This document shows positions 47,398 through 63,912 of a DNA stretch of 64,000 nt, piece after piece; within the stretch, counting starts at the first letter, position 1; each line of letters begins with the position of its first letter. Source of the stretch: a virus; IMG/VR virus record IMGVR_UViG_3300030419_008158, positions 124,001-188,000 of that record; one strand, given 5' to 3'. The notes under the pieces were generated by a model. It worked only from the letters and a program-made list of their open reading frames with translations. It ran no database searches and had not been told where the DNA came from. A program made the translations under genes and the position numbers.

Positions 47398-49005
47398 TTA
47401 GCCAAATTCTGGTCCAAACATTTTTTTATTTTTTTGAAAAAATCTTTCCCACGAAGAATCAAGTATGTAAGTAACAGCTGTATCCGTTTCACTTCTAACG
47501 GATCTTCCTATGCTTTGTATGACAGTTTTTGCTGTTTGTAAGTCGTACCACCAGTCCCACTTATTCATTTTTTTTCTTACTAGTCTGTCACCCAAATATG
47601 GAAATGGAACCTTGCAGATAATCTGAAATCTGGACAAGTCTTCCTTAAGATCAACACCTTCTGTCATAGATGGCGAAAGAAGCACAGTGGGCTCTTTTGA
47701 TCGAATATGTTTTTGAAGTATTTCGTCTCTATTGGTTGAATCATGAATAAGCAGTCTAGAACTTCTAATGTTCTTCTTTAAGTGCCAAGCGATTTTATAA
47801 GAATGGCAGTGAATAATTCCTTTTTCATTTTTATGACCTTTGAGTATTTCTTTGACAGCAGCTGTAAGCTTTGGAAGCGTTGAATTTATTTCATTGGCAG
47901 ACATTTTTCCAATACCGCTGTAGATGATTGGTCGATTCTCAGTAGGAAATGGGCACGGAATAGAAAGGGTCTTATAATTTTTTCCCTCTGATATTCCTGA
48001 GATTTTTGCAAATTTTTCCATATCGACAATTGTTGCTGACATCATTAGAACATGCTGTCCCATCTTAAGCATGTAATCATATGCATACGGTGCGACATCG
48101 ATGGGTTTGAATTCTACCTTTCTACTAGATTTTTCTTGGGCCGGTATTTCTGTCATGACCCAGTTATCTTTGTCGTAAAGGGCTATAAAAGTAAGAACTT
48201 TTTGTTCATGACTCGTTAGAATTTCAATCTGCCTTGATAGTTTAGAAAATTCTCCGCTTTTCATGCGAGACTTAATTGATGTGTATTTCTCTAAACCTCT
48301 ATTGAATTCTTTGACTTTCTTTGCAAGTGCTGGATGATATTCGTTTTTTACCCATCTGACAAACATTCCAGGCGTTATCTTTTCCGGAAGGGTTATGCCT
48401 ACAAACGACTTTGCAAATCTATCAGAAAAAGTTACTTCAATAAACTTGCTAAGCTCTTCTGGTGCATTGTGTGCTTCATCAATCACAAGAAGCGTCTTTT
48501 TAGGAATTTTGCCGCTATAGCGAGTCTCAGTCAAAAAGTAAGAAAAGTTTGTAACACCGTGAGGATCTTCGATAAACTTGTCTTTTGCCTGTTTGTAGGT
48601 GCACTTAAAAGCACATCTTTTGAAAAATGGATCGCTGCGATCAGTTGTTTTTAGCATCTTCCTTGATTCATTACAGTTTTGGTGCTTGTGATACGTGCAC
48701 TGATAGTTTGAAGATGACTTGAGAGAATTAATGTCGGGATAATCCCGTTTATATTGTTCTTGTAGTAATTTTTGTGTAGTAAGGATGTTGCTTCCGCGAA
48801 CAAATTCATCGACCGCCGGAATATGATGAGCAACATAGCGTGCTACAGTTGATGCAATTGCAGACTTCCCTACACCGGTACCCGCATCGAGTACAAAATA
48901 TTTTTTTCCTGACTCGAAAGCATCAATAATTTCATCGATTGCTTTCTTTTGTCCGGGTCGTACTTCTGGGTACGGAAAGTATCCTTTCCAATCAAATTTA
49001 GGCAT
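47398..49005 (-). CDS. Superfamily 2 DNA helicase, DinG/XPD-like with Fe-S cluster
   Basis: 535 residues. YPEVRPGQKKAID (Q-motif-like), LDAGTGVGKSAIAS (Walker A, 39-52), four cysteines at 103, 111, 131 and 135 forming the iron-sulfur domain, LLVIDEAHNAPEEL (DEAH box, 176-179), MSATIVD (motif III), PSMTEGVDLKEDL (motif V) and QSIGRSVRSETD (motif VI). Such enzymes are 5'-3' DNA helicases in repair. It could resolve R-loops or recombination intermediates during phage replication. The start is the ATG one base inside the nucleotidyltransferase stop (TAATG). Confidence 0.9.
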   Translation of the reverse strand: MPKFDWKGYFPYPEVRPGQKKAIDEIIDAFESGKKYFVLDAGTGVGKSAIASTVARYVAHHIPAVDEFVRGSNILTTQKLLQEQYKRDYPDINSLKSSSNYQCTYHKHQNCNESRKMLKTTDRSDPFFKRCAFKCTYKQAKDKFIEDPHGVTNFSYFLTETRYSGKIPKKTLLVIDEAHNAPEELSKFIEVTFSDRFAKSFVGITLPEKITPGMFVRWVKNEYHPALAKKVKEFNRGLEKYTSIKSRMKSGEFSKLSRQIEILTSHEQKVLTFIALYDKDNWVMTEIPAQEKSSRKVEFKPIDVAPYAYDYMLKMGQHVLMMSATIVDMEKFAKISGISEGKNYKTLSIPCPFPTENRPIIYSGIGKMSANEINSTLPKLTAAVKEILKGHKNEKGIIHCHSYKIAWHLKKNIRSSRLLIHDSTNRDEILQKHIRSKEPTVLLSPSMTEGVDLKEDLSRFQIICKVPFPYLGDRLVRKKMNKWDWWYDLQTAKTVIQSIGRSVRSETDTAVTYILDSSWERFFQKNKKMFGPEFG

Positions 49006-49442
49006 TATAGTTCTAGTTCCATCATTTTCTGCACCATAGACTTAGAAATGTTAATCTTAAGCTCTGTGGTAGAGAAATTATGATTTCTTTCAATAAAATA
49101 GACAGGTTTTTCGTAGTGTGCTCCAGTGTAATCTTCTCTGTCGCGATAGTCACTACCTAAAATTCTGACGTCGTAATTTTCCTGTCCCAGGACTTTGTCT
49201 AATTCTTTCTCTGTGTTATATGTGACAATCTTATCAACATAGCGAATTGACTCCAATATTTCAATTCTATCACTCAGGGATTGTACTGGCTTGCATTTTT
49301 CAGGCCTGTCGATAGTGGGATCCCCTTGAAGAGCAACAGTAACATTTTCACAAACGCTTTTTGCCTCTTTAAACATTCTAATATAGCCTGGATGAATTAC
49401 ATCAAACGAGCCACAAATAATTCCGCATGTATAAATTTTCAT
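49005..49442 (-). CDS. Cytidylyltransferase-like nucleotidyltransferase (TagD/RfaE type)
   Basis: Start at the ATG inside the clpP stop (ATGA); 145 residues starting MKIYTCGIICGSFDVIHPGYIRM. Rossmann-type nucleotidyltransferase: GSFDVIHPGYIRMFKEAK is motif 1 with HPGY instead of the usual H-x-G-H (the second histidine replaced by tyrosine). SLSDRIEILESIRYVD and NHNFSTTELK (ISSTxIR-like) are motif 2 and the C-terminal substrate loop. It would couple a sugar or glycerol phosphate to CMP or AMP. Whether the Tyr change lowers activity is not known to me. Confidence 0.8.
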   Translation of the reverse strand: MKIYTCGIICGSFDVIHPGYIRMFKEAKSVCENVTVALQGDPTIDRPEKCKPVQSLSDRIEILESIRYVDKIVTYNTEKELDKVLGQENYDVRILGSDYRDREDYTGAHYEKPVYFIERNHNFSTTELKINISKSMVQKMMELEL

Positions 49443-50059
49443 ATTATTGCATCCACCAGCCCTAGCTCCAAACATCTTTCAGAGGGTAACCAAAGCTCAT
49501 GCTTCAATAGCTCTTCAAGAGATTCTTCGTCAATCTTTGATGTTTCAAGATAAATTTTCTTTATTGTATCAAATATAACTTTTTGATTTTCTATTTCGTC
49601 AATAAACTCGTCATGCTTACCAGCCCATAAAATTTGAGGCTGATGGATTAGCATAAATGATCTTTTGCTAATATAACGTTTTTTACCTCTTGAAGATATC
49701 AATGTTGCCGCAGATGCAGCTGAGCCCTCAACGTATGTGTAAACATCAGTCTTGCATCTATCAATTGCATCACAAATATTTAGTCCAGAAAATACATCTC
49801 CGCCCGGACTTTGTATATGCAAATGAATGGGTGGATTCTTTCTAAGACCAATTCTTGCTGCTAAATAAGACATTTCTATGTCTAGACGTCTTATGATTCG
49901 AACTAATTCGAATGCTTCTTTATCTGTTACAGCTGCATAAAAATATATGTGGTTCTCTTCAACATCAATGCCGCTAGGTTTTCCTTTTTCTTCTGACATT
50001 AGCAAGGACGCAATGTTCTCACTCATCTCATCAGAAATCACTGCTTGATCTTCGTTCAT
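49439..50059 (-). CDS. clpP: ClpP-family serine protease
   Basis: Start at the ATG within the upstream stop (ATGA), 206 residues, the usual ClpP length; a longer reading adds 22 residues that overlap the previous gene. Motifs: IHLHIQSPGGDVFSGL (oxyanion segment), YTYVEGSAASAATLISS with nucleophile Ser116, and RSFMLIHQP with His139. The Asp of the triad is not clearly placed by eye. Phage ClpP-type proteins can be prohead proteases or host-like Clp peptidases. No AAA+ Clp partner is in the window. Neighbouring head-type proteins with L-x-E cut sites raise the prohead role as an option, although T4-type sites are normally cut by a gp21-type protease. Confidence 0.88.
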   Translation of the reverse strand: MNEDQAVISDEMSENIASLLMSEEKGKPSGIDVEENHIYFYAAVTDKEAFELVRIIRRLDIEMSYLAARIGLRKNPPIHLHIQSPGGDVFSGLNICDAIDRCKTDVYTYVEGSAASAATLISSRGKKRYISKRSFMLIHQPQILWAGKHDEFIDEIENQKVIFDTIKKIYLETSKIDEESLEELLKHELWLPSERCLELGLVDAII

Positions 50060-50502
50060 TCGGTAGAATCGTCGTCTATTTTCAGAAGAGGATAATCTCC
50101 GAATGACGTTTTTACTATTGCGCATTTTACTCCTTCAAAAGCGTTATTAGGTAGACTTTTTGCATTAATAATCAAAATTTCAAATTTAGCTGTAGTTGAA
50201 ATGTGATTTCTGTCATTATCTAGATTTGAAATTTTTGGAATACAAGTCGCCCGATAATAGTTCATCATTCCATCTTTCCAGATATTTGATGTTTCGTCTA
50301 CTTTTTCTCCTTGAAAGACTTTCCACACAGATGGATTTCTGTCAGAATAGTCACCGCAGCATAAAAAAAACCTTAGGTCATCGTAGAGATCATCTGGGAC
50401 ATCTGGAACATCGCCTACAGGTGTCATATATTGATACTCTTTTTCAACGACTAAAAGATCCAGCGGAGAAAATAAGTTTCGTATTTTTTCTAATTCGTTC
50501 AT
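50056..50502 (-). CDS. Hypothetical protein
   Basis: 148 residues, no recognised family. The middle is acidic (VGDVPDVPDDLYDDLRFFLCCGDYSDR), and the end alpha/beta. Coupled to clpP by a four-base overlap. It diverges from the plus-strand lipoprotein protease with 25 bases between; that short gap must hold both start signals. Confidence 0.55.
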   Translation of the reverse strand: MNELEKIRNLFSPLDLLVVEKEYQYMTPVGDVPDVPDDLYDDLRFFLCCGDYSDRNPSVWKVFQGEKVDETSNIWKDGMMNYYRATCIPKISNLDNDRNHISTTAKFEILIINAKSLPNNAFEGVKCAIVKTSFGDYPLLKIDDDSTE

Positions 50503-50527: not shown

Positions 50528-51316
50528 ATGAAAAAAAACTATATCAGTCTAATTCTATTACTAATGTGTCTTTTTTTCACACAATGTGGTGTACATGGAA
50601 AATACACAGGTCCCACTCCAGCAATTTACAAGCTTGTTGAAACCCAGACAGTACTTGTTGAAGTCACAAATACGATTACACCAACGCGGTGTGAAAATAA
50701 ATCTAATTTTGCAAAGAAAGAAGACCTTTGCTCAAAAGTTTTGCCCGAACTTCCACCCATACACGGATCACATGTGGGAACAGGAACATTTATCAAGTTG
50801 AACGATGAAATAGTTGTTTTGACTGCAGAGCATGTATGTGCCCCAGACGAAGTTCCGAAAAAAGTAGAAAAAGATGACGTAGTCGTTTATCCGACAATTG
50901 AAACAAAAATTGAAATTAAGTCGAGAATTTATACGGGTGTTGGCTCTGTGTTAAAAATGAGCAAACCTCTGGACATATGTGTTTTGTCGCTAGACGTCCA
51001 GCCTAATGTTTCTGTTCCTAACTTTTCAAGAAAACCACCCGAAAGAGGTGCTAGAATATACTACGCCGGAGCGCCGCAGGGGTTCATGTCGGATACTGCC
51101 CTAATGATGTTTGATGGAAGATATGCGGGAACCATGGGGAAAATGCTAGCATTTTCAATGCCCTGTGAGCACGGAACCTCAGGTGCCAGTGTTAGAAATA
51201 GTAAAAATCAAATATTTTCGATAGTGCAAAGAGTGAACGGTCAGTTCAAGCATATGTGTTACGGTGTTAGCACAGAAGAGATGATAAAATTCTTAAGTAC
51301 TATAAAGCCTAAGTAA
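50528..51316 (+). CDS. Secreted lipoprotein with trypsin-like serine protease domain
   Basis: 262 residues, plus strand. Signal peptide MKKNYISLILLLMCLFFTQC with a lipobox-like LFFTQC ending in Cys20, so the mature protein is probably lipid-anchored outside the cytoplasmic membrane. The chymotrypsin fold is indicated by GTGTFIKLNDEIVVLTAEHVC (His102), KPLDICVLSLD (Asp149) and EHGTSGASVRN (Ser218). Several extra cysteines could form disulfides. A phage-encoded lipoprotein protease would act in the host periplasm or envelope, for instance in lysis or superinfection exclusion (inference). It overlaps the convergent 51309-51599 gene by eight bases. Opposite orientation to almost all neighbours suggests its own promoter and timing. 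Confidence 0.82.
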   Translation: MKKNYISLILLLMCLFFTQCGVHGKYTGPTPAIYKLVETQTVLVEVTNTITPTRCENKSNFAKKEDLCSKVLPELPPIHGSHVGTGTFIKLNDEIVVLTAEHVCAPDEVPKKVEKDDVVVYPTIETKIEIKSRIYTGVGSVLKMSKPLDICVLSLDVQPNVSVPNFSRKPPERGARIYYAGAPQGFMSDTALMMFDGRYAGTMGKMLAFSMPCEHGTSGASVRNSKNQIFSIVQRVNGQFKHMCYGVSTEEMIKFLSTIKPK

Positions 51317-52271: not shown

Positions 52272-53561
52272 CTATGCTCCACCACTGCACGACTCAGTTG
52301 ATAGATCGCTATCGTCGACTTCTATAAACTTTTCACTCTCGTGCTCTTCATCATCTTCTCTCATTCCCGAAACTTTGCTAATCATATCAGGAATCGGACA
52401 ATCACCAACATCAACTTCAAGAAACTTTTTTGCAGTTGCAGCACGTGCCATGGGAGCTGTCATCGACTTGTGTACAACAGTTGCAGCTGCAATTTTCCCC
52501 GGGTCACTATTTTTTTCTGCTTCCAGCAAAACTTTTCTTATAATTTTTCTAAGAACAGATTCAGACAGCATAAGATTTCTTTTCATAGTTTTTGTCTCTC
52601 CAATTGTACAGCTATGTGTGGGCTGGGTTGGCAATTCTCCTTTGGAAAATTCGTAGTTATATATTTCCAGCTCAGTACCTTCTGCGTTCTCAGAAGCCTC
52701 ATTATCACAAAGTTGAGCAACTCTTCGAGCATTTTCTGGATCGTCATCATAAAAGTGTATGTTATCGATGGAAGGATTGTGAATCTTACCAATTAGATCT
52801 CTCTTCGCTGATGCAGGATCACTGGGATTGAAATCAGCTGCGCCATAGACGACGTCAGCATTCGATCCGATTTCTGACGCCAAAAAATCCTGTATATCAG
52901 ATGCGTTAGTTGCAGGAACTTTACCTCCACCTAGTGTATCTAGATCGGTCTTTCCTTTTCTTGCTGTAACAACAGCGGTCATGTCGCCTGATGCTTCAGC
53001 ATCTAGGAACACATCTAGCATACTGTCTATTGGTTCTACTTCTGTGCCAATTGTACTTGATGGACTAAAGTCAGCAATGTGTATTTCGCCTGTTTTACCC
53101 TGGTCAAACATCTCTCGCCCGGCGCTTCGAATATCGTTGCTTATGTTGGGATTTACAACCAAACGAACATGTTCACCAGAAGGTATATACTTTTCTTTCC
53201 AGTCTCTATACTGCTCTGTGTCTAGAACAATCGCTTCAGCGTCATCTAGTTCATCATTGCTTCTAACAGTATTTCCTGATAGCCCTGGAGAGTTTACGTT
53301 TTTTTGAGCCGGCGTGCTGAGGTTTTTTACTTTTGATCCCACACGCGAATTTAGATTTTTTATGGGAATATACGATGAAGGGTCATCAGGGTCTCCACCG
53401 TTATATTCGACAGCTGCGACAAGTGTCGGTGAGGTGGTTACACCCAAAGTATCATCGAAATCAAAGACATGCAAATCTCTCTCCGGACTTTTTACTTGAT
53501 CCTCGTCCTGTTCTTGTAAAATTCCAGCTAGTTTACACCATCGATTGATAACTGCATCCAT
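52272..53561 (-). CDS. HAD-like phosphatase domain protein with internal targeting-type helix
   Basis: 429 residues. Residues 1-20 contain INRWCKLAGILQEQ, the motif that ends the two genes upstream. Residues 29-305 hold HAD motifs: LHVFDFDDTLGVT (nucleophile), MTAVVTARKGK and NIHFYDDDPENARRV (motif IV). After about residue 320 comes MKRNLMLSESVLRKIIRKVLLEAEK, a targeting-type helix with L-L-E, preceded by GGAGAG eleven bases before its ATG (52584-52586), so a second translation start inside the gene is possible. The tail is acidic. Likely packaged or structural rather than a simple enzyme (inference). GGAGAA and GATATTTA stand upstream. Confidence 0.65.
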   Translation of the reverse strand: MDAVINRWCKLAGILQEQDEDQVKSPERDLHVFDFDDTLGVTTSPTLVAAVEYNGGDPDDPSSYIPIKNLNSRVGSKVKNLSTPAQKNVNSPGLSGNTVRSNDELDDAEAIVLDTEQYRDWKEKYIPSGEHVRLVVNPNISNDIRSAGREMFDQGKTGEIHIADFSPSSTIGTEVEPIDSMLDVFLDAEASGDMTAVVTARKGKTDLDTLGGGKVPATNASDIQDFLASEIGSNADVVYGAADFNPSDPASAKRDLIGKIHNPSIDNIHFYDDDPENARRVAQLCDNEASENAEGTELEIYNYEFSKGELPTQPTHSCTIGETKTMKRNLMLSESVLRKIIRKVLLEAEKNSDPGKIAAATVVHKSMTAPMARAATAKKFLEVDVGDCPIPDMISKVSGMREDDEEHESEKFIEVDDSDLSTESCSGGA

Positions 53562-53687: not shown

Positions 53688-53801
53688 TCATTCGCTTCTT
53701 TTATGAGTGTTTCTATATATTGTCGCAAACAATGAACCAGAGAGCTTTTTAGCAGCCTCTGTGATCAATTCTATGAAAGCGTTCCTGCTAGCTTGTTCCA
53801 T
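53688..53801 (-). CDS. Possible 37-residue helical peptide
   Basis: An ATG 28 bases inside the 3' end of the 354-residue gene opens a frame of 37 codons, MEQASRNAFIELITEAAKKL... ending in the 53562-53770 gap. The peptide is an amphipathic helix with an I-T-E-A site, resembling the targeting helices of neighbours. The ribosome-binding site is weak, so it may be non-coding. The rest of this 209-base gap holds the promoter motif, a 10-bp palindrome and nothing else I can identify. Confidence 0.3.
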   Translation of the reverse strand: MEQASRNAFIELITEAAKKLSGSLFATIYRNTHKRSE

Positions 53802-54835
53802 CTTTCAAGAAGAATATTTCCGCTGTTTCTTGTTCGCGACTCAGTTTTAGTCTTATTACCCAAAGCGTTGCCGATGGCAGTCAAGAATTTAAGAGTCTTC
53901 TGGGGATCTCCTAAAGCTTGCAAGTTTACTTGCCCGGCAGTTCCCATTGAAGCAGATGGATCATTGAACATGGTGGCAGCCCATCGATGGTGACCATCAA
54001 GAATCTCTCCGTTGGTGCCTGCCCAGGCGTCTAGATCTCCACCTGCTATTTGATTTTTAGGGTTCATTGCCATACCCAAAGCTTTGTAAATAAGAATATT
54101 AGACTGTGTAGGAATAGCGTCAGAAGCATTAAGCGATCCCCCCGCTTTTATTTCGATCTTGTCGTCTGTGTCATCTCCGTCATCAAGACCTGCAGTCATA
54201 AACTCTTTTGCACCTGGCGCATCCATGCCGACAAATTTATTTGGCGGAGGGGGCTCACCACCTTTGAGGTTAGAACTTTCTTCTTTTTCCTCTTCTTGCT
54301 CCATGAGAGCGCGCGCGCCCACCTTCCATGCTGCCTCCTTGAACGGAGCAGTAACATCAATATTATAGTCTCCGCCCGGTGTAAGAGCGTCTTCAACGTC
54401 AGAAACTTCCCCCTTAGCATCTTCGGGCCCGGGTAAGAAAGGCATGACACTTTTTGGTAATCCAGTGGAAGGAATTTTGGAAGCTAATGTGTTTAGGCGC
54501 TTGACAAACGTTTCAGGGCCAATCTTTTCAATCCATTCCTTAGCTTGCGCACCGTTAGTTTCATACCACTCGCCTTTCGTAATAGCTACGATTGGTGCGT
54601 CATCATCCCCAGAAAGAAGTTGGTTTGCGATTTCAACAGCATCTACATCTTTTACATTCGTCGTCTTATCAACCGAGGTTCCCTTAGGAGCATCTCCAAT
54701 TTTTCCAGATGCTTCTTTTTTCTCCTGGCCTTCCTCTTCTTGCTCAAAAAGAATCTTACTTAATTTCGGCAATTGGCTTGATGTGTCTTCATTTATGACA
54801 TGTCTTACTATTCTTCTTAGGTCGCTTTTCTTCAT
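53771..54835 (-). CDS. ParB/sulfiredoxin-like DGHHR protein with targeting-type N-terminus (paralogue 1)
   Basis: 354 residues. N-terminal KKSDLRRIVRHVINEDTSS is a basic amphipathic helix followed by an I-N-E site and an acidic spacer. The core has DDKIEIKAGGSLNASDAIPTQSN and ILDGHHRWAATMF (about 279-291), the 'DGHHR' motif of ParB-, SerK- and sulfiredoxin-fold proteins that bind nucleotide. The C-terminus is LLERWNKLAGTLS. The following gene to the right is a paralogue over the DGHHR region. AGGGAGAAAA is the ribosome-binding site. Possibly an enzyme carried in the head and injected, as T4 Alt is (inference). Confidence 0.65.
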   Translation of the reverse strand: MKKSDLRRIVRHVINEDTSSQLPKLSKILFEQEEEGQEKKEASGKIGDAPKGTSVDKTTNVKDVDAVEIANQLLSGDDDAPIVAITKGEWYETNGAQAKEWIEKIGPETFVKRLNTLASKIPSTGLPKSVMPFLPGPEDAKGEVSDVEDALTPGGDYNIDVTAPFKEAAWKVGARALMEQEEEKEESSNLKGGEPPPPNKFVGMDAPGAKEFMTAGLDDGDDTDDKIEIKAGGSLNASDAIPTQSNILIYKALGMAMNPKNQIAGGDLDAWAGTNGEILDGHHRWAATMFNDPSASMGTAGQVNLQALGDPQKTLKFLTAIGNALGNKTKTESRTRNSGNILLERWNKLAGTLS

Positions 54836-54876: not shown

Positions 54877-56361
54877 CTAGTCCTGAAAAATTCCTGCCAG
54901 CTTTTGCCAGCGTTCAACAATCAAGTTATCTTTTTCTAGATTTGATTCTTTCTTAAAGGGCGGGACAACATTATACTCACCGGCAGGAAGCCCTTTTTCA
55001 ATTTTTGCCAAACCTGAGGAGCCTCCAATAGACTCGTGATCTAACTGCGGCATATCTTCTCTAGATTTTGGCGCGCCATCTAGCGGTTGAGGCAGAGATC
55101 CTAAATTTTCTCCCACTTTGCTGGCAATTGCTTTTCTGATGGGGTCGTTTTCAAATCCTGTTCCTGAGTCTGCCAAAGAGACAAACTCTTCATCTCCTGT
55201 TAGACCGGCCCACTCATTTATTTTAGGGTGCTTTCCGTCTGCAATTGACTTAATCATAGCATCATTCAGCAGCGGCCCCGGGGCCTTTTCATCAGTCTGC
55301 TTACCTTTGTTTGCGTCTATCATGGCAACAATTGCATCTTTGCTTTTTCCGATGATGTCAGTTGCTGCTCCACCTCCTTTTGATGGATGCTGTCCGCTAT
55401 CATTGACAGCGGCAACTGCAAGCTGCGCTGCTGCCAGCTTATCAGCCACACTCCCGGGAAAACCAAAATCTTTTGCATTTATCGATCCGTCCGGCGTAAT
55501 AGCAAAAACGCCCGACCAGCGATGATGTCCGTCCAAAACAGCATTTCCGGAAATAGATATCGCTCCTGGTGCACCAGAAGTCTTGCTGGTAATTGCACTT
55601 TCTAGAACTTTTGCACTTCCTAAAGGAAATGAAACAGATTGCATCAAATCAATGAACTGCTGCGTAGGTCCTAGACTGCTTACGCTCACAGGAGTAGCAC
55701 TCCCTACTGTAATCTTATCATCCGGCTCTGCACCGTCATCAGCTTCAGCAGCTTTGACAAGAACATCCTGAACACCCGGGTCTTTATTTCCTTGTGCATC
55801 CATGAATGCTCGAACCCCCTCAGGTCCTGCTTTATATGCTGTTTCAAGATCTTTTCCTGGATCGCCAGTGACCTCTGGAGATTCTTTTTCTTCTTTGTCT
55901 TCTTGTTCAAAAAGGTTTCTCATTTCTGAGAGAATTATTTTTCGCAAGTCTTTGCTGTCAATTTTCTTAGTAGGTTTTGTAAAACCCAATGCTTCAGAAA
56001 GTGTAATTTTTCCCATGAATTTATTCTCCATTCTTCTTCCCATACCCGACCTTGTTGGCAACTCAATGTCATACTCACCTGGCATTAAATCTTGAATTCT
56101 ACGTTCCATTTCAATGTATTCTAGGTCTTGTATCACTTGTTCTTCTCGGGCACGATTAACAGCAGCGTATTCTTCCCAAATTTCATCTACAGCGGATTCT
56201 GCCTCTTCCATTGTTTCGAACATTGGAATTTTAGGTCGACGACCGTACAATTCTTTGTACATGTCAGAATACATGCCACCCAAATCTTGCAACTTTTGAT
56301 CATACTCGGCGTCTGCTGTGTCTCTAGGGTGCAATTCTCTAATAAGTTTGCTCAGGTGCAT
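54877..56361 (-). CDS. DGHHR protein with N-terminal extension and internal targeting-type helix (paralogue 2)
   Basis: 494 residues from the ATG with AAGGAG six bases upstream (MHLSKLIRELHP); a GTG five codons earlier lies within the Shine-Dalgarno region. Residues 1-115 are a helical charged domain. Near 116 is MGKITLSEALGF, then IDSKDLRKIILSEMRNLFEQED, a targeting-type helix with L-S-E and L-F-E sites. Its ATG (56013-56015) has GGAG nine bases upstream, so internal initiation is possible. The rest parallels the 354-residue gene: DDKITVGSATPVSVSSLG, AVLDGHHRWSGVF and a terminal IVERWQKLAGIFQD. A fused pair of genes is suspected. Confidence 0.65.
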   Translation of the reverse strand: MHLSKLIRELHPRDTADAEYDQKLQDLGGMYSDMYKELYGRRPKIPMFETMEEAESAVDEIWEEYAAVNRAREEQVIQDLEYIEMERRIQDLMPGEYDIELPTRSGMGRRMENKFMGKITLSEALGFTKPTKKIDSKDLRKIILSEMRNLFEQEDKEEKESPEVTGDPGKDLETAYKAGPEGVRAFMDAQGNKDPGVQDVLVKAAEADDGAEPDDKITVGSATPVSVSSLGPTQQFIDLMQSVSFPLGSAKVLESAITSKTSGAPGAISISGNAVLDGHHRWSGVFAITPDGSINAKDFGFPGSVADKLAAAQLAVAAVNDSGQHPSKGGGAATDIIGKSKDAIVAMIDANKGKQTDEKAPGPLLNDAMIKSIADGKHPKINEWAGLTGDEEFVSLADSGTGFENDPIRKAIASKVGENLGSLPQPLDGAPKSREDMPQLDHESIGGSSGLAKIEKGLPAGEYNVVPPFKKESNLEKDNLIVERWQKLAGIFQD

Positions 56362-56382
56362 GATTTTCTCCTTCACTAGCAG

Positions 56383-56405: not shown

Positions 56406-58499
56406 CTACTCAGGATTGCAAATCTCAGAAAGAATTTGCATTAAAGAGCCGTACATTTGTGTAGCGTTGCTAGACAGTTGAAAATACTCACCTGAACATG
56501 TGGAAGCAATTTCATCCCACTCCCATGATTCGTTAGTAGAAAAAGTGTATATCTTGGTTTTGGGCGCACTGATACAAGCATTTTTTATCTGCTCTACAGA
56601 AATCTCAGGTATCATGTAGCTTTGCTCTTCTTCATCGCTGAACACGATAATGATTTTATCAGCAGTCGGTCTCCAGCCAATTGTAAACACGTCTTTTGGT
56701 GGGATTGACTCACCGACATCTGTGTCCCACTCTGTTGCACTCATATCCATGTTTGCACCAGAAGAAATATTATGCAAAGACAAGTATATTCCATCAAGAA
56801 GCATCTCACTTCCTGTGTTCATTCCGTCGCTTCCAAGCGCAGCAAATGCTGCTAGAAAGTCCGGAAAGGGTGCAATATCTGACACTAGAATTAATCTTTC
56901 TTCAAATTCTCCTGCAAGTTGTTTCGGACCAACAATAAGACCCCAGTGTAACTTATCTTCAAGGGAATAGTAGGCAGCAAATTGATTTAATGCAATTAGA
57001 ACAGCTTCGATTTCATCAATCATCGAGCCAGACCAATCGATAACAAAAAGAATATCAGTTTCTGGTACTTCTTTTCCCCAGTCAACTTGTCCATCACAGT
57101 CATCATCAATTCCGTTACATTCTTCCGGCTTGGGTAGTACTTGATCTGCGCACATATTATCGATAAAGATATTATCTGACGTGTATGAACCCCAGGATCC
57201 CATATTGCACGTCATATTGCCTGCTTCGCAGATTCCTATGCCTAAAGTACCCTCTGGGCCTGTGTAACAATCTGCAATAAGACCCTCATCAATAAGAGTG
57301 TTGCAGTTGTCATCAAAGTTATTACACTTCTCTTCATTTAGAGGCATACCGACCAAGGAGTCACAAGCTGGGTCTGAGCCGGGAGGATCAACTAGCCAGT
57401 GGCAAATAGCGTAGCAAGGTGATAGAACAATCTCTTCACACCCAGGATCATTACAAAGACATGTCTTATATCCCTGGCCGCACAAGAGTGGCGGCTCAAA
57501 ACAGGGTAGAAGCTTTCCAACGTCTTGCACTGTGCATAGACACTCTATTCCATCGTCTATCAAGCCGTTACAATCGTCATCAAACCCGTTGCAAATCTCA
57601 GGCATTGGTTGCTTGGCTGTGCAACCACTCCAGTTTCCTGCGACGCAGACTTTGACCCCGACACCACATGCCGTGCTACACTCTTCTATTAGCTCATCAT
57701 CAACAAACCCATTGCAATCATTGTCGATCCCGTCGCATTCTTCAGCCGGAACTGCTCCGCACTCATCGCATGCGTTTCTTTGACCTTCGTCAATTTCACC
57801 ATCACAGTCATTGTCTGCATAATCACAAATTTCTTCTTGAGGTATGGGCCCGTAACAGACAAAGACACCGTCTTCACATATGGCATTCCCAGGCCCACAC
57901 TCATTTTCACAGGGTTCCACACCGATATCTTCGTCTGTAAGGCTATCACAGTCATTATCTTGTCCGTCACAAATTTCTTCTGTGCAGTCTTGACAGTCTG
58001 AAAAGTAAAGCTTGCCCTTGTCACAAACAACGTTTTGTTTACCGAGGGACCCATCTTCCATTTCACAATACTGCCACCCATAATCTAATGTCTGTGCACC
58101 TGGAGGACACTCGTATGCTTCGTAACATTCTCCCATAAAAAGAATTTGAGGTGGATCACATTCGTTTATTCCTAGAGGTTTACAAGGAACGTCTGAATCG
58201 TGACAAAAGTTTAGAACGACCTGCTTCTTCTCCATTGTAGGTTCACCGAATACAGGTGGACAAAACCATTCTTGTGTTTCACAACACTGAGGTTTGCAGC
58301 TGCACCACATAAACTGATCCTCTATTGTGATAGTTGCACAGGGATCTACATCTTCGGGAGGTGTGTCTGGTGTGTCGACATTCCTGGGATCTGTATCTAT
58401 TACAACTTGTGTGCTAGAAACATCTACCGGACTGCCACGGTCGTCGGCACAACCAACAACAAATAATAACGTAAGCGCCAGTGAGACAATTTTATTCAT
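56406..58499 (-). CDS. MopE-like calcium-repeat lipoprotein with C-terminal VWA domain
   Basis: 697 residues. Signal peptide and lipobox MNKIVSLALTLLFVVGC (Cys17). Six repeats of the MopE/'CDGxDNDCDGxxDE' type: EEICDGQDNDCDSLTDE, EEICDYADNDCDGEIDE, EECDGIDNDCNGFVDDE, PEICNGFDDDCNGLIDD, EKCNNFDDNCNTLIDE and EECNGIDDDCDGQVD, presumably calcium-binding and disulfide-rich. A VWA domain starts near residue 480 with DILFVIDWSGSMIDE (MIDAS DxSxS). These proteins are frequent in Myxococcota and relatives. In a phage, an exported adhesin or host-surface mimic is plausible. No Shine-Dalgarno is obvious; TATAAT lies 12-17 bases upstream. Confidence 0.85.
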   Translation of the reverse strand: MNKIVSLALTLLFVVGCADDRGSPVDVSSTQVVIDTDPRNVDTPDTPPEDVDPCATITIEDQFMWCSCKPQCCETQEWFCPPVFGEPTMEKKQVVLNFCHDSDVPCKPLGINECDPPQILFMGECYEAYECPPGAQTLDYGWQYCEMEDGSLGKQNVVCDKGKLYFSDCQDCTEEICDGQDNDCDSLTDEDIGVEPCENECGPGNAICEDGVFVCYGPIPQEEICDYADNDCDGEIDEGQRNACDECGAVPAEECDGIDNDCNGFVDDELIEECSTACGVGVKVCVAGNWSGCTAKQPMPEICNGFDDDCNGLIDDGIECLCTVQDVGKLLPCFEPPLLCGQGYKTCLCNDPGCEEIVLSPCYAICHWLVDPPGSDPACDSLVGMPLNEEKCNNFDDNCNTLIDEGLIADCYTGPEGTLGIGICEAGNMTCNMGSWGSYTSDNIFIDNMCADQVLPKPEECNGIDDDCDGQVDWGKEVPETDILFVIDWSGSMIDEIEAVLIALNQFAAYYSLEDKLHWGLIVGPKQLAGEFEERLILVSDIAPFPDFLAAFAALGSDGMNTGSEMLLDGIYLSLHNISSGANMDMSATEWDTDVGESIPPKDVFTIGWRPTADKIIIVFSDEEEQSYMIPEISVEQIKNACISAPKTKIYTFSTNESWEWDEIASTCSGEYFQLSSNATQMYGSLMQILSEICNPE

Positions 58500-58563: not shown

Positions 58564-59967
58564 TTACACTTTGATTCTATCAATTGTCTGTGGATAGCTT
58601 ACAGCAATATCTTTGTAAAGCTTCTTCATCACTGCTTTCGTAATATTTGCCAGCTCTTCTTTTGTTGCTTTGTTCTTAAGAATTTTCTCTACTTCTGTCT
58701 TGATGGTTTTTTGCAGATCTTTTCCAACAACTTTTGTAATTTCTTTTTGTGCTTCTTTTCTAGAAATCCTTTCGATTTCTTTCATGTCTGTTTTGGTAAA
58801 TTTTTCTACCAAAAGTATCTCTCTTACATGTCTTCTAAAGCGAAGCTCTTCTTGGATATAGCTTTGAGCAATTCGACTATATCCTGCTGCAAGCCTAAGC
58901 TTTTGTTCGGGAGGTTGTTCTCTAGACAACCCTAGTTTATCAATGATAAGGGAGATCACTTCTTGCATGTCATCTCTAGTCAGACCCCTAACATACGCTT
59001 TTACTTGCTGCATAAATTGTTTTCTGTCAGCCGGCTCAGCAAACGCTCGATCCTCAGACCCAACTGTTTTCATTAGATTTTTTGCAGTTTTTTCGAAAAG
59101 TTGATCCGGATCCATAACTTCCAAAGATGCTATTTGAGATCCTGCGCCCTCAGTTTGACCACCTTCAGAGTTTTGACCATCCGACCCTAAAATTATCTCC
59201 ATATTCTTCTTGTTTAGGCGCCCATCAGACATGCCAAGTTTTTTTACTAGCTGCTTCTTGACTGCTTTAATAAGATCGTCAGCATCAGCCGGCTTTTTTG
59301 TAAGAGCATCTAAAAGTCTGTTTCGAAGATTTTCTAAAGGTTTACCCTGGGTTATCTCTACGGGTTCTTGTGGAAGATGTTTTACGATATTGTTTACAAC
59401 TCCCTCTCTGCTGATTGGTGCAGTCACGTGCCCCCAACGAATTATAACATTTTCGTCGTTTCCAGTTTTTATGACCCCGATATTACCTAGCATTTTCTTA
59501 TCAGGTTCTTTTATGATAAGTGCAAGAATAGATTCAATTTTTGGCGAGGAGCTTGATGTGGCTGCAGAAAAATTATCGTCTGCACGATATGAAGAAAAAG
59601 AAGACTTGACAGAATAGTAAACACCGTCCTTATCAGCATCATAAAAAGTTGTGACACCTGCACTACCTTGATCTTCTACACCAAAACCCCAAAACTGGAG
59701 CATTTTTTCGGCAATTGACTGCCACGCATTTTTATTCCCGCTCTCAGTCGCAACAGAGTGAACTAATTCATTGAATACCAGAACCTCTGAAAGCAGCTTA
59801 TCAGCGTCACCAGCTCGGGCAATATTCTCAGCGTATTTTGGTATATTGATATCGTATGCTACTGGAATATCAACACTGACACTCCCAGCAGCGCCTGCAT
59901 CCATTTTCAATACTTTTTCGGATAAGATTACATTTCTTATCCAAGACTTTAAGAGCCTCTTTTTCAT
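58564..59967 (-). CDS. Large protein with targeting-type N-terminus, function unknown
   Basis: 467 residues from the ATG ten bases after GAAGAG, giving MKKRLLKSWIRNVILSEKVLK; the longer reading intrudes into the upstream gene. The N-terminal helix and I-L-S-E site resemble the other targeting peptides. Residues 30-250 are alpha/beta with a FYDADKDGVYYSVKSSFSSY segment; 'D..K.G..YSVKSS' recalls PD-(D/E)XK-type cores (D...VKSS) but this is only suggestive. Residues 330-467 are long charged helices (coiled-coil). Probably a packaged or scaffold-like head protein. Confidence 0.55.
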   Translation of the reverse strand: MKKRLLKSWIRNVILSEKVLKMDAGAAGSVSVDIPVAYDINIPKYAENIARAGDADKLLSEVLVFNELVHSVATESGNKNAWQSIAEKMLQFWGFGVEDQGSAGVTTFYDADKDGVYYSVKSSFSSYRADDNFSAATSSSSPKIESILALIIKEPDKKMLGNIGVIKTGNDENVIIRWGHVTAPISREGVVNNIVKHLPQEPVEITQGKPLENLRNRLLDALTKKPADADDLIKAVKKQLVKKLGMSDGRLNKKNMEIILGSDGQNSEGGQTEGAGSQIASLEVMDPDQLFEKTAKNLMKTVGSEDRAFAEPADRKQFMQQVKAYVRGLTRDDMQEVISLIIDKLGLSREQPPEQKLRLAAGYSRIAQSYIQEELRFRRHVREILLVEKFTKTDMKEIERISRKEAQKEITKVVGKDLQKTIKTEVEKILKNKATKEELANITKAVMKKLYKDIAVSYPQTIDRIKV

Positions 59968-59968
59968 T

Positions 59969-60565
59969 TTAGAAAAGCTCTTCATTTTTTGGGTCATGCT
60001 TGACCAGAATCTTCTTCATAACAGCAACTTGTTTATCTGACATGCGTCTGCCGGATTTCATTTGATCTGCGAGGCTTTGCAAGAAATTATTGGTCTTAAC
60101 AGACAGGTAATCTTCGATAGCTGCTAATTGTTTCCCTCTTACAGAGCCGGCCATTGGAGGTATATTTTTTCTTCGCCTCCATGGCGGACTAGTCCCGAGA
60201 TAAGTCTCACCACCATATTTTTGACCAAAGGCTGCACCTCTGCGCGATACGTTACCTTCATCATCGTAGATATTACCCTCGGCGTCGACGTATTGTTCGT
60301 ATTCCAGCAGCATTAATTCACGACGAACAATGCGTCGAAGTTCATTCTCAGAAAGAAGTGGTTCTTGAGCTGGAAGAGACTCCGGAGATTTTGTAGTAGC
60401 TTCAGACCCTACAGCCTTTGAGTGATCTATGTCTAACTCTAGATTTTTTGCTGTACCCTCAATGTCTCCGGACCACGCATCTTCAACGGGCTCCACATCA
60501 GAAGGGTGTTCTTCATCTAGCATTTCTAAGATAATTTTTTTGAGCTGCTTTTTTGTAATTTTCAC
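59969..60565 (-). CDS. Targeting-peptide protein, unknown function
   Basis: 198 residues. The start is the GTG at 60563-60565 with GGAG eight bases upstream, giving MKITKKQLKKIILEMLDEE, a clear member of the shared N-terminal peptide series (I-L-E-M cut site). A second such helix, SENELRRIVRRELMLLEYEQY, follows near residue 75-95 with L-L-E-Y. The C-terminal 60 residues (LAAIEDYLSVKTNNFLQSLADQM) are helical. Packaged head protein suspected. Confidence 0.65.
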   Translation of the reverse strand: MKITKKQLKKIILEMLDEEHPSDVEPVEDAWSGDIEGTAKNLELDIDHSKAVGSEATTKSPESLPAQEPLLSENELRRIVRRELMLLEYEQYVDAEGNIYDDEGNVSRRGAAFGQKYGGETYLGTSPPWRRRKNIPPMAGSVRGKQLAAIEDYLSVKTNNFLQSLADQMKSGRRMSDKQVAVMKKILVKHDPKNEELF

Positions 60566-60581
60566 TTTAGAATCTCCATTC

Positions 60582-60920
60582 TTAAATAAAGGCACCTAGT
60601 TCTATTTCGGTTGCTCTGTCTTCTGCCCACTCCTCTATGTCGAGTGGACCGATAAAGCCGTTCTGCGGGGGTGTGTAGTCAAGCCATGTTCGATTCGGGG
60701 CACCGGCGCGCTGTGCTAGGTCGTCTAGATCTTCAAATCCAAGACCTCTCTGGTCCAGCCACTCTCCCCAACCATGCATGAGCTTCTCGTCCGTTTTTTG
60801 TTCACCCTCCCCACCGGGTGCATAGTAATCTTCTTCACCGGGAGGAGCAGAGAAATCTCTATCATCATCGGCCCATGCTTCCCTGATGATTCGCCTGAGC
60901 TGTCGCTTAGTGATTCTCAT
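60582..60920 (-). CDS. Targeting-peptide protein, unknown function
   Basis: 112 residues starting MRITKRQLRRIIREAWADDD. The rest is acidic (GEEDYYAPGGEGEQKTDEK) with aromatic residues, and no family is recognised. SD GAGGCAG before the ATG. The shared peptide and position put it in the internal head-protein series. Confidence 0.65.
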   Translation of the reverse strand: MRITKRQLRRIIREAWADDDRDFSAPPGEEDYYAPGGEGEQKTDEKLMHGWGEWLDQRGLGFEDLDDLAQRAGAPNRTWLDYTPPQNGFIGPLDIEEWAEDRATEIELGAFI

Positions 60921-60924
60921 ATGA

Positions 60925-61149
60925 TCATCTGCCTCTGCGCAAGACTTTAACAGTTACGCCCTTGACATCACCGGTCATAATATAAAGTTCGCCGGGTGCA
61001 TCACCTTTTTCAACAGTTGCCACCCCTTTGTTTATTCTATTCTGTAAATCAGCTGCCAATCTTTCTGGAGTCTCCTCCAGATCAGGTAAGTGACTTGCAT
61101 CTAGCATTTCCTGAATGATTTGTTTTAGCTTTTTCTTTGAGATTTTCAT
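60925..61149 (-). CDS. Targeting-peptide protein, unknown function
   Basis: 74 residues from the ATG sharing one base with the upstream stop (TAATG), MKISKKKLKQIIQEMLDASHL. The reading from 61251 would overlap the upstream gene by 100 bases. A short beta-rich C-terminal region (GELYIMTGDVKGVTVKVLRRGR) follows. Unknown function. Confidence 0.65.
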   Translation of the reverse strand: MKISKKKLKQIIQEMLDASHLPDLEETPERLAADLQNRINKGVATVEKGDAPGELYIMTGDVKGVTVKVLRRGR

Positions 61150-61412
61150 TATCTCATCCTCTGAATTTTTTCTAACATTAGATTCTTGCATTCTCTCTTG
61201 ATTCCGGGTGAGCGAAAGCTGCCACCAATACGCACAGCCTCGCTGATACAATGCTGGATCAGTTCGTCGATGGACATTTCAACATGTGCTAAGAGGTCTG
61301 ATCTTGCTTCATCTTCATCAGCAGAGATTGTGCCATCAGGATTCATTTCATTGAGAATCTTGACTTTCTCTTCTTTAATAATTCTTCTGAGTTGCTTCTT
61401 TGTGATTTTCAT
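61149..61412 (-). CDS. Targeting-peptide protein, unknown function
   Basis: 87 residues, MKITKKQLRRIIKEEKVKILNEMNPDG; the helix is followed by I-L-N-E-M, an L-x-E site. The remaining part is helical with three cysteines (HCISEAVRIGG, ECKNLM). SD GGGAG before the ATG. Confidence 0.65.
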   Translation of the reverse strand: MKITKKQLRRIIKEEKVKILNEMNPDGTISADEDEARSDLLAHVEMSIDELIQHCISEAVRIGGSFRSPGIKRECKNLMLEKIQRMR

Positions 61413-61414
61413 TG

Positions 61415-62140
61415 TTATCTCCCGCTAACCTTTCTATACATCGCCTTATGAAGAGAATTAACCATAGGTTCAAGGTCTGTCCCGTACAACACAGGCATAA
61501 CCCTGTCTTCAAGATCATAAATGGCTTGTTGTATTTTTGCGTTATTTTGAAGTTCGTATTGCTCTGCGTTGGCGTCTTCTTGTAGCTCTTCTTTGATAAT
61601 TCTTCTGAGTTGTCGTTTTGTGATCTTCATTCTGTTTTTTCCTTCAATCTTATATTCGTCGCGACCTACTTCAAAATCTTCATCATCTGGCTCTTCGATG
61701 CCAGCGGCTATAGCCTTTTTGTTTTCTACATCCGCTACGGGGGAATCATCAGCGACGTAACCCACACCAGTATTACTTGCAGGTGAAACGTCGTATGGAG
61801 GTTTCGGTGCCGGATTCTTACTGAGTGACGGGTGTCCGGCATAGAGGCTCCAGTCGATTGGCTCGTCGACAGGCACCTCTACTTTTGGGCCGAACCTTTG
61901 ATTATCCGGATGGTAGTTATCCTCCGCGACGCCTCGGGCCGCCTGGTCAGCGGTTTGAAACATATGATTTAGAGACCCAACTCCCATAAACGGCCGGCCC
62001 TGCGCCTTGCCCAGCCAGTCGGTGGCCGCTTGTTTTGACCCCTTTGCCGGCCAGAATGGTGCGTGCTTATCTCGCCTCTCGAGAAGACGGGCCTTCTCTT
62101 CTTTGATGATTCTTCTGAGTTGTCGCTTTGAGATTCTCAT
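61415..62140 (-). CDS. Double targeting-peptide protein (apparent in-frame fusion of two genes)
   Basis: 241 residues. Starts with MRISKRQLRRIIKEEKARLLERRDKH. A complete second copy, MKITKRQLRRIIKEELQED, begins at residue 171, and its ATG (61628-61630) has an AAGGA-type site nine bases upstream. The first half has aromatic and proline-rich loops (APFWPAKGSKQ, PAPKPPYDVSPAS), the second is a 70-residue helical domain. It looks like two tandem genes joined by stop-codon loss, with the second start perhaps still used. Confidence 0.65.
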   Translation of the reverse strand: MRISKRQLRRIIKEEKARLLERRDKHAPFWPAKGSKQAATDWLGKAQGRPFMGVGSLNHMFQTADQAARGVAEDNYHPDNQRFGPKVEVPVDEPIDWSLYAGHPSLSKNPAPKPPYDVSPASNTGVGYVADDSPVADVENKKAIAAGIEEPDDEDFEVGRDEYKIEGKNRMKITKRQLRRIIKEELQEDANAEQYELQNNAKIQQAIYDLEDRVMPVLYGTDLEPMVNSLHKAMYRKVSGR

Positions 62141-62143
62141 TAT

Positions 62144-62344
62144 CTATGCTTCTGCCTCTATAGTACCTTGTTCATATCCAGCATCATACGCCTGTGGATA
62201 TGTTGAGCGATCAGCATCGTTTGGATACCCCTGATAAGCATCATCATACCCGCGATCGTACTCTTGATCTTCATCCCTGTTGGGGCTCATCATTCTAATC
62301 TCTTCCTTGATGATCCTTCGCAGTTGTCGCTTGGTGATTCTCAC
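62144..62344 (-). CDS. Targeting-peptide protein rich in Tyr/Asp repeats
   Basis: 66 residues from GTG (SD AGAGGA), MRITKRQLRRIIKEEIRMMSP, then an acidic/aromatic segment with repeated YDxGY units (YDRGYDDAYQGYP, YPQAYDAGYEQG). No family known. Same N-terminal peptide series. Confidence 0.65.
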   Translation of the reverse strand: MRITKRQLRRIIKEEIRMMSPNRDEDQEYDRGYDDAYQGYPNDADRSTYPQAYDAGYEQGTIEAEA

Positions 62345-62357
62345 GGTTTATCCTCTT

Positions 62358-62966
62358 TTAAGCTCTAAAGGCATCTCGAACATAGTCGGTTGCGTAGTCA
62401 ACGGCAGATTCCTTTTCGCCCTCAGACTCGGCGTACTCAATATTAGCAAGGGCATCGAGTGCCTCATCAACCTCAAACCCCGTACCCAAGTTTCGAACCA
62501 TGTCTTCCAATTGAGCCAATGTTGCTGAATCGTTAGGGTTTCGTGATAGCTTGCTCAGCAGATCACTAGCTTGATCGTAAGTTGCTCGGCCACCAGATCG
62601 ATTGTCGTCTACTACGTCCTGCACAAATGCGATCATTTGGTCAATAGGTTGTGATGGAGTATCAGAGTCTTCTTCGGAAACTGTGTGATAGCCTGCAGCT
62701 TTAAGAGTGTTTAGCGACTGCAACTGTGCTTCAACACCGTCACGGGGCACCGGGCCGCCACCAAACTGCCTAGCAACATCATCATCGGTCATTGCGACGT
62801 TATTTCCGTCTAGATACCAAAAACCCTGTGCTAAATCAGCATGACCCTTTTTGTCCATCTGCTCCATCAATCTTCTGCGCACAATTCTACGAATCTTCTG
62901 CTCAGCCAGAACTTTGGCTTTCTCTTCTTTGATGATTTGTCTTAGTTGTCGCTTGGAGATTTTCAT
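62358..62966 (-). CDS. Targeting-peptide protein, unknown function
   Basis: 202 residues, MKISKRQLRQIIKEEKAKVL followed by A-E-Q-KIRRIVRRRLMEQ; two L-x-E-Q sites (L-A-E-Q and L-M-E-Q) are seen. The remainder is a helical acidic domain (DQMIAFVQDVVDDNRSGGRA, SDLLSKLSRNPNDSATL). Unknown function; SD AAGGA. Confidence 0.65.
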   Translation of the reverse strand: MKISKRQLRQIIKEEKAKVLAEQKIRRIVRRRLMEQMDKKGHADLAQGFWYLDGNNVAMTDDDVARQFGGGPVPRDGVEAQLQSLNTLKAAGYHTVSEEDSDTPSQPIDQMIAFVQDVVDDNRSGGRATYDQASDLLSKLSRNPNDSATLAQLEDMVRNLGTGFEVDEALDALANIEYAESEGEKESAVDYATDYVRDAFRA

Positions 62967-62981
62967 GTTGTTTTTTCCTTC

Positions 62982-63371
62982 TTACGTCATCTCGACAAAT
63001 TCGTCAAAGTCACCAGCTGCGTAAGGATCACCCCCTGCATACCAGTTGACAAACCAGTCCTTGAGCATTCCAACATCACCCGCGACGTCGAGCATGCTGT
63101 ACCCGCTTGGGCCGGTCCCCCTGTCTGTAAATCTCAGACCACGATATCGGGGGTTTCTTGTCATCTGCTTGAATGGACCACTCTCATCACGTATTTCCCC
63201 GTGTTCGTCCATCATGTCTAGGCCTCGAATTATTCCCTGTTGACCGGTTGGCTCAGCTGGTCCTCGCATCTTGATAGCTTGTTCAGCGATACGACGGACC
63301 TTCTGTTCAGCCAGGACCTTGGCTTTCTCTTCTTTGATAATTCTTCGAAGCTGTTTCTTTGTGATTCTCAT
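62982..63371 (-). CDS. Targeting-peptide protein, unknown function
   Basis: 129 residues from the ATG overlapping the upstream stop (TAATG), MRITKKQLRRIIKEEKAKVL, with L-A-E-Q then KVRRIAEQAIKMRG. AGGAG lies ten bases upstream. The C-terminal half is aromatic and glycine-rich (MLKDWFVNWYAGGDPYAAGD). The longer reading from 63401 lacks support. Confidence 0.65.
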   Translation of the reverse strand: MRITKKQLRRIIKEEKAKVLAEQKVRRIAEQAIKMRGPAEPTGQQGIIRGLDMMDEHGEIRDESGPFKQMTRNPRYRGLRFTDRGTGPSGYSMLDVAGDVGMLKDWFVNWYAGGDPYAAGDFDEFVEMT

Positions 63372-63784
63372 TAGAAAAAAGCTCCTATTATGTTTAGCCA
63401 TGTGTCAAGGGTAAATCTGTCGCCGGCATCTGGGTCCATTTCGTCCGCAAGCTCATCGTCCCTGACATGCGTTACACCGTATGTGGATCTAAGCCAGTTG
63501 GCCAGCGCGACATGATCAGCCTTTGAGTCCAGATCTCCTTCCCACCAGACTGTCTTAATGCCTGGCTTGAGCTCAGGATGTGAGTCTGGGTATTGAATTA
63601 CAATACCGGAATTTTCAAGAGTACCAAGGCCGCTGGGAGGCGATCTGTAGTCTATCACTAGTGTTTCACCACCAGCCTGCTCCAATAGTTTCCTGCGGAC
63701 AATTCGACGGACCTTCTGCTCAGCCAGAACTTTGGTCTTCTCTTCTTTGACTATTCTTCTAAGTTGTCTTTTTGTGATTTTCAT
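63371..63784 (-). CDS. Targeting-peptide protein, unknown function
   Basis: 137 residues starting MKITKRQLRRIVKEEKTKVL, followed by L-A-E-Q and RRKLLEQ (L-L-E-Q). A compact alpha/beta domain follows (TLVIDYRSPPSGLG, TVWWEGDLDSKADHVALANW) ending in a hydrophobic LDTWLNIIGAFF. The ATG is chosen because AAAGGA lies seven bases upstream; the longer reading would overlap the cysteine-rich gene. Confidence 0.65.
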   Translation of the reverse strand: MKITKRQLRRIVKEEKTKVLAEQKVRRIVRRKLLEQAGGETLVIDYRSPPSGLGTLENSGIVIQYPDSHPELKPGIKTVWWEGDLDSKADHVALANWLRSTYGVTHVRDDELADEMDPDAGDRFTLDTWLNIIGAFF

Positions 63785-63795
63785 TCTGTATCCTT

Positions 63796-63912
63796 TTATG
63801 CTACGTTGCACTTGCCCAGGCAGCTCTCACACGAGCAACAACCGCAGCAGCAGCAGCAGTGTGAAGATTTAAATAAGTTGCGTAGACGATGAAAAAATAG
63901 ATTTGCTGACAT
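63796..63912 (-). CDS. 38-residue cysteine-rich microprotein
   Basis: ATG (63910-63912) with AGGAG eight bases upstream and a GATATTTA motif 33 bases upstream. The protein is MSANLFFHRLRNLFKSSH then CCCCCGCCSCESCLGKCNVA: ten cysteines in the last 20 residues, five of them in a row (19-23). The N-terminal half is a short basic amphipathic helix. No known family; possible metal-binding (zinc or iron-sulfur), disulfide-linked or lipidated product. Its stop precedes the next gene's Shine-Dalgarno. Too short for most gene finders. Confidence 0.65.
   Translation of the reverse strand: MSANLFFHRLRNLFKSSHCCCCCGCCSCESCLGKCNVA

Follow-up and report, generated by a model that had tools for sequence, protein, structure and literature searches.

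The stretch of DNA analysed here (the window) is 64,000 nucleotides long and is bases 124001-188000 of IMG/VR virus record IMGVR_UViG_3300030419_008158, which has a record length of 284,429 bp. On the minus strand at window positions 59969-63811 there are nine consecutive open reading frames (ORFs) bearing ten copies of a short N-terminal peptide, which we call the tag and which we think is probably a capsid-targeting sequence. The consensus of the tag is MKITKRQLRRIIKE. The initial annotation had reported a run of genes with a common N-terminal peptide here, and this holds up well. The form it gave, M(K/R)I(T/S)K(R/K)QLRRIIKEE, is exact in five array copies (in the ORFs at 61149, 61415, which has it twice, 62144 and 62982), but the remaining copies deviate at one to several positions: RQII at 62358, RRIV at 63371, IIREA at 60582, MKISKKKLKQIIQEM at 60925 and VKITKKQLKKIILEM at 59969.

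All nine ORFs are on the minus strand, and in what follows a slash marks a candidate cut. The ORF at 59969..60595 (208 aa) has its tag near 60497-60565 and an internal second tag-like helix, LSENELRRIVRRELMLLE. Next to it, 60582..60920 (112 aa) has the tag at 60855-60920 with I-R-E/A at residue 14. The ORF at 60925..61251 probably starts at the tag Met at 61149, and the same is true of 62982..63401 (tag Met at 63371) and 63371..63811 (tag Met at 63784), because in each the tag Met sits within the longest ORF. In 61149..61412 (87 aa) the tag at 61344-61412 is followed by ILNE/M. Two tag copies, at 62069-62140 and 61565-61630, occur in 61415..62140 (241 aa), where the internal copy has its own Met and a Shine-Dalgarno-like sequence. 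The short ORF at 62144..62344 (66 aa) has a GTG start. In 62358..62966 (202 aa) the tag is followed by VLAE/Q and then by a second helix, RIVRRRLME/Q; VLAE/Q also follows the tag in 62982..63401, and 63371..63811 has both VLAE/Q and RIVRRKLLE/Q.

A profile search of the whole record found 41 tag copies, with a best E of 6e-14, so the recurrence is far beyond chance. These copies belong to some 35 array genes, most of them in two clusters, and to two head-module genes. The array clusters are at record positions 183969-189226 and 270719-284375 plus 43-586, with a lone tagged gene at 226571, and the first array extends past the window end. The tagged set of about 35 genes in two arrays is thus larger than was first noted. 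In the tag alignment L8, I11 and E14 are invariant, and the tag core has a high hydrophobic moment of 0.64. Leu8 uses all six Leu codons, and the Arg, Thr/Ser and Ile codons vary as well. Since synonymous codons vary while the residues stay, the conserved unit is the peptide and not the DNA. We saw no enrichment of the T4-like late promoter TATAAATA within the window (2 observed vs 3.3 expected), and we found no mention of the peptides RRIIKEE, RQLRRII or KLAGIIK in the literature that we searched.

At the start of the record, positions 1-111 hold a tagged gene truncated by the record start, whose cargo (EAYEYNPLDEMYLMLDH) is nearly that of 283844-284119 under a different tag. An exact terminal repeat was not found at the record ends. 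The near-identical cargo could be either a recent duplication or an unresolved circular end.

Downstream of the tag the proteins are unrelated, as the initial annotation had said. The 457 distinct tagged ORFs that we collected gave 474 cargo segments, which fell into 243 clusters with 162 singletons. Tagged proteins have a median length of 104 aa and the cargo is acidic, with a median of -0.075 per residue vs 0 in other ORFs, an approximate comparison because the background is a mechanical ORF set. Searching 116 cargo representatives against Pfam gave 7 isolated, mostly weak matches, and searching cargo representatives against PHROGs gave 22 matches, nearly all without function. One cargo family, which we call HWPRVDW, is conserved across phages by itself and is unrelated to neighbouring cargo. 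In its AlphaFold model (pLDDT 81) the tag forms an N-terminal helix (residues 5-26) that precedes a small helical protein, and searches of PDB and BFVD with this fold gave no match (E above 0.6). Loci L156 and L198 have nearly the same cargo under different tag versions.

Two to four tags are found in 26 distinct ORFs. Because 12 of 28 internal tags have no start codon, some of these ORFs must be true fusions. A hydrophobic-x-E occurs within the eight residues preceding 19 of 47 internal tags, vs 13.9% in cargo overall (p 7e-6), which suggests that the fusions might be cut on either side of an internal tag; this is a suggestion only, and Shine-Dalgarno relics may contribute to the excess.

Outside the window, at record positions 76443-87416, is a T4-type head module with matches to Gp23 capsid (E 9e-76), Portal_T4 (2e-74) and Peptidase_S77, the T4 gp21 family (3.6e-26). 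The S77 protease also matches the PHROG for head maturation protease (1e-50), and it is the gp21-like protease that the initial annotation had looked for beyond the window. Between the protease and the capsid gene are a 134-aa gene, two genes that we call p153 and p97, two further genes, and a 543-aa scaffold candidate that is acidic (net charge -57). The N-terminus of p153 is AKITKRMLKGIVKECLVEILSE/G, p97 has RKITPNFLKRIVVEEARKLQAE, and the scaffold candidate has ITPQIRKMINNRILFE/Q. The tag resembles the p153 and p97 N-termini in register and the scaffold more loosely.

Our first profile (A1) included both head proteins, so the tests we rely on use a profile built from 29 array tags only, which avoids circularity. 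Among 1775 ORFs of the same genome, this array-only profile ranked all but the weakest array genes first, then p153 (E 0.02) and p97 (E 1.3). We also applied it to 6655 ORFs from 80 related head loci. At E<=1 it found further array-type genes, p97 (11), p153 (8) and scaffolds (2), and at E<=10 there were 40 matches to p97/p153. When the columns of the profile were permuted, keeping the same composition, none of 1000 permuted profiles reached either p97/p153 count (maxima 11 and 19). We take from this that the array tag specifically resembles the N-ends of the genes adjoining the head protease. Nearly all p153 orthologues have L-x-E/G at residues 21-24; p153 itself had no match among cultured phages. 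In Flavobacterium phage immuto, a small gene behind the protease has a 23-residue N-end that is not repeated elsewhere in that phage, so we claim no array for it.

The tags also carry what look like sites for such a protease. In a set of 153 non-redundant tags, 136 have an [LI]xE ending at E14. Conservation drops sharply at the next residue, 15 (E 76, A 34, S 13), and 75 of the 153 tags have a second [LI]xE whose P1 residue falls at positions 17-26, vs 17.5 +/- 3.9 in shuffles (maximum 34). The L-x-E that the initial annotation saw after the tag is therefore real, but the near-universal candidate is the I-x-E at residues 12-14. The second site is more independent evidence than E14. In the capsid proteins of this group [LI]58-x-E60 is invariant (54/54) and is followed mostly by A, Q, S or V. 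We take this position to correspond to the cut in T4 gp23.

Viral contigs gave 62 stretches with the tag pattern, and a search of 84,980 prokaryote genomes gave it on two contigs only. One of the two is NHDW01000006.1 (L141, L143), a 305,838 bp contig of a Methylococcaceae metagenome-assembled genome, and that assembly has tag arrays and an S77 protease on one contig (C5). This contig is probably a phage genome binned with the bacterium and is a possible hint of a host. Sixteen records found by their tags have 2-38 copies each, and related records found via the protease have up to 32. S77 is present in 6/6 tag-found virus records of >=178 kb, plus the contig from the Methylococcaceae assembly; it is absent in the shorter fragments (60-135 kb).

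Taken together, we think it likely that this T4-type phage uses the tag to target proteins to the capsid core. As the prohead assembles, the tag, a basic amphipathic helix at the N-terminus, would dock on the acidic scaffold core in the manner of the N-ends of core-region proteins that the phage itself encodes. Cutting by the S77 (gp21-type) protease would follow, after the I-x-E at residue 14 and often also after a second L-x-E at residues 17-26. This would remove the tag and leave the mature, mostly acidic cargo inside the head, probably to be delivered together with the DNA. Because loading would need the tag only, the arrays could gather and exchange unrelated cargo genes. The sequences show the tag, how it lines up with head-module proteins, the protease with a likely site rule, and the diversity of the cargo; from these we infer docking, cutting, packaging and delivery. 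The initial annotation had called the peptide capsid-targeting-like and cleaved. This is the best explanation of the S77 protease, the capsid [LI]xE, the p153/p97 register and the block that ends at [LI]xE, and packaging and cleavage are well supported by these comparisons but unproven. Injection and effector roles, which T4 precedent alone suggests (PMC3012670), would be a further step.

The closest known system is that of T4. T-even internal proteins are highly diverse and only their capsid-targeting sequence (CTS) is conserved (PMC3012670). In the T4 CTS, targeting is influenced by residues 4 and 7 and processing by residues 8 and 10, with L/I-x-E as the site (PMC9026906). As with T4 IPI-III and Alt, which gp21 processes, we see a short N-terminal peptide that is common to unrelated proteins and ends at [LI]xE, in a genome with a gp21-family protease, a Gp23 capsid and a T4 portal. 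The spacing of the key hydrophobic residues and the Glu is also alike: Y4, F7, I8 and E10 of the CTS would be L8, I11, I12 and E14 of the tag. The sequences themselves differ, as T4 IPII starts with MKTYQEFIAE in annotated records and the present tag, MKITKRQLRRIIKE, is four residues longer. T4 has a handful of internal proteins whereas the present phage has about 35 such genes, and this phage has multi-tag ORFs and a second, C-terminal tag (described below), for proteins whose packaging is predicted.

A second comparison is with phiKZ-like phages (SPN3US, phiKZ), where the prohead protease likewise removes N-terminal propeptides from inner-head proteins, and where gp53 and gp54 of SPN3US have an identical 15-residue N-end (PMC5694885). 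However, the phiKZ and SPN3US propeptides are mostly >100 residues and are cut at A/S/G-x-E, whereas the present block has 14 residues and ends in I-x-E. The capsid, portal and protease make the present phage T4-type. Our best reading, which draws on sequence comparison, is a T4-type capsid-targeting system that is new, has its own tag and has expanded greatly.

Several points weigh against this reading. The tag and the T4 CTS share only the letters M-K, I and E and are too short for a homology test, and as the letters differ we claim the same way of working and not proven homology. The likeness to p153 and p97 is that of a short basic amphipathic helix and is weak for each protein taken singly (E 0.02 and 1.3 within this genome), and no clear [LI]xE is retained in p97. 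The 136/153 (89%) with E14 are not independent events, since E14 is a single inherited motif. The co-occurrence with S77 (7/7) is a raw count, and the array was found in no cultured relative. The cargo is acidic, in contrast to the basic internal proteins of T4. Finally, the tagged proteins are known from sequence alone.

These points leave room for other explanations. The one that survives best is that the tag is a docking helix for a partner other than the capsid (the membrane, the replisome, another phage structure or a host protein) and that the likeness to head proteins is coincidental. Basic amphipathic helices have many docking roles, the hydrophobic moment of the tag core is high, and packaging is itself deduced from sequence. 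Even so we regard this as unlikely, since no permuted profile matched p97/p153 as often, the conserved block stops at a site that fits the protease rule, and S77 co-occurs with the tag. It is very improbable that the genes are one duplicated family with diverged C-terminal parts, in which the N-end is simply what has stayed conserved and plays no role of its own. Their tandem arrangement, similar lengths and the several members of some cargo families would fit such a history, but cargo families such as HWPRVDW are conserved across phages and unrelated to the cargo next to them, different tag versions can precede nearly the same cargo, and the tag also starts head-region genes. A DNA-level element at gene starts, for recombination or regulation, with the peptide as a by-product, would suit the tandem, co-directional genes, the cassette-like exchange of cargo and the internal tags that resemble fused former neighbours, but it is largely refuted and scarcely credible given that synonymous codons vary freely while residues are kept and that tags also lie within ORFs without a start codon.

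Besides the capsid-targeting tag there appears to be a second, C-terminal one. The motif [RK]WxxLAG occurs 59 times in the ORFs of the fetched loci, always <=25 residues from the C-end, mostly in scaffolds and also in other proteins. In viral contigs there are 66 instances of ERWxKLAGI, of which 63 are C-terminal, three are N-terminal and none is internal. It is also at the C-end of the scaffold candidate in a Flavobacterium phage that has been cultured, and a Microcystis phage has a looser version. An [LI]xE directly precedes [RK]W in 7/9 non-scaffold carriers, and the capsid propeptide has a similar L-x-E-K-W, then G-L-L. In T4 Alt a C-terminal propeptide is cut by the prohead protease (PMC9026906), and the [LI]xE before RWxKLAGI would allow similar cutting here. 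Alt differs in that the present C-terminal sequence is common to the scaffold C-end and resembles the capsid propeptide.

The initial annotation also listed tag variants at 51309, 52272, 53771, 54877 and 58564, but none has a significant match to the array profile (51309 matches at E=10) and we consider them looser look-alikes. Three of these five genes carry the RWxKLAGI-type tag, and by sequence they seem to be a related but different, two-tag set. On the minus strand, 53771..54835 encodes a 354-aa protein with a DGHHRW motif, LFE/Q near the N-end and the C-terminal tag LLERWNKLAG, and its 499-aa paralogue at 54877..56376 (-) has an internal DLRKIILSEMRNLFE/Q and the C-terminal tag IVERWQKLAGIF. 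The 429-aa protein at 52272..53561 (-) has an N-terminal NRWCKLAGIL, a core-tag-like helix near the C-end and a weak polynucleotide kinase PHROG match (E 0.0014); a search for its relatives found none. The 477-aa protein at 58564..59997 (-), with an N-terminal LLKSWIRNVILSE/K, is a loose look-alike of uncertain membership.

Relatives of the DGHHRW protein are directly behind the capsid gene in L027, L040, L061 and L217, and in L216 a homologue is within a tag array. The homologue of 53771 in L217 is closer, and those in L027, L040 and L061 are more distant. DGHHR is present in 13/66 ERWxKLAGI carriers, several of which start with a core-type tag. AlphaFold gave no usable model of the DGHHRW protein (mean pLDDT 37). 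A very weak match to 1vk1 (E 0.26) together with the motif hints at the ParB/sulfiredoxin superfamily. The 502-aa protein at L261:1984-3492 has a core-type tag at its N-terminus (MKITAKQLRSLIMEE), ERWQKLAGIIK at its C-end and a P-loop-like GPPAAGKG. It had no Pfam match and is a candidate two-tag packaged enzyme. A 457-aa acidic protein at record positions 15200-16573 (-) has the C-end STLNE/NSQLFRWQKLAGIK and is a further candidate head protein.

It is conceivable, with the odds slightly against, that the two tags form a two-address head sorting code, in which an N-terminal core-type tag (MKITKRQLRRIIKE/) and a C-terminal propeptide-like [LI]xE/RWxKLAGI, each with its protease site, are used singly, combined, or repeated in protease-cut polyproteins, and would place dozens of swappable proteins in each virion.

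The window holds other genes of note. A 697-aa protein at window positions 56406-58499 (-) carries four MopE-type motifs for metal binding (PF11617, E 8e-17), matches VWA weakly and has an N-end like that of a lipoprotein, which is unusual in a phage. At 50528-51316 (+), on the strand opposite to its neighbours, is a trypsin-like protease (PF13365, E 4e-8) whose signal resembles that of a lipoprotein. By eye, we also see a putative ClpP-like protease at 49439-50125 (-) and a putative helicase with a Walker motif at 47398-49005 (-), both adjoining the region analysed.

If the tag does target the capsid core, a signature of about 14 residues would reveal virion-borne proteins among hundreds of orphans in uncultured giant T4-like phages, and the proteins so catalogued would be candidates for early host takeover or counter-defence. 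It would also offer a short tag from nature with which cargo could be loaded into large phage heads, and the arrays would be a test case for how cassette exchange shapes the set of proteins that a phage delivers.

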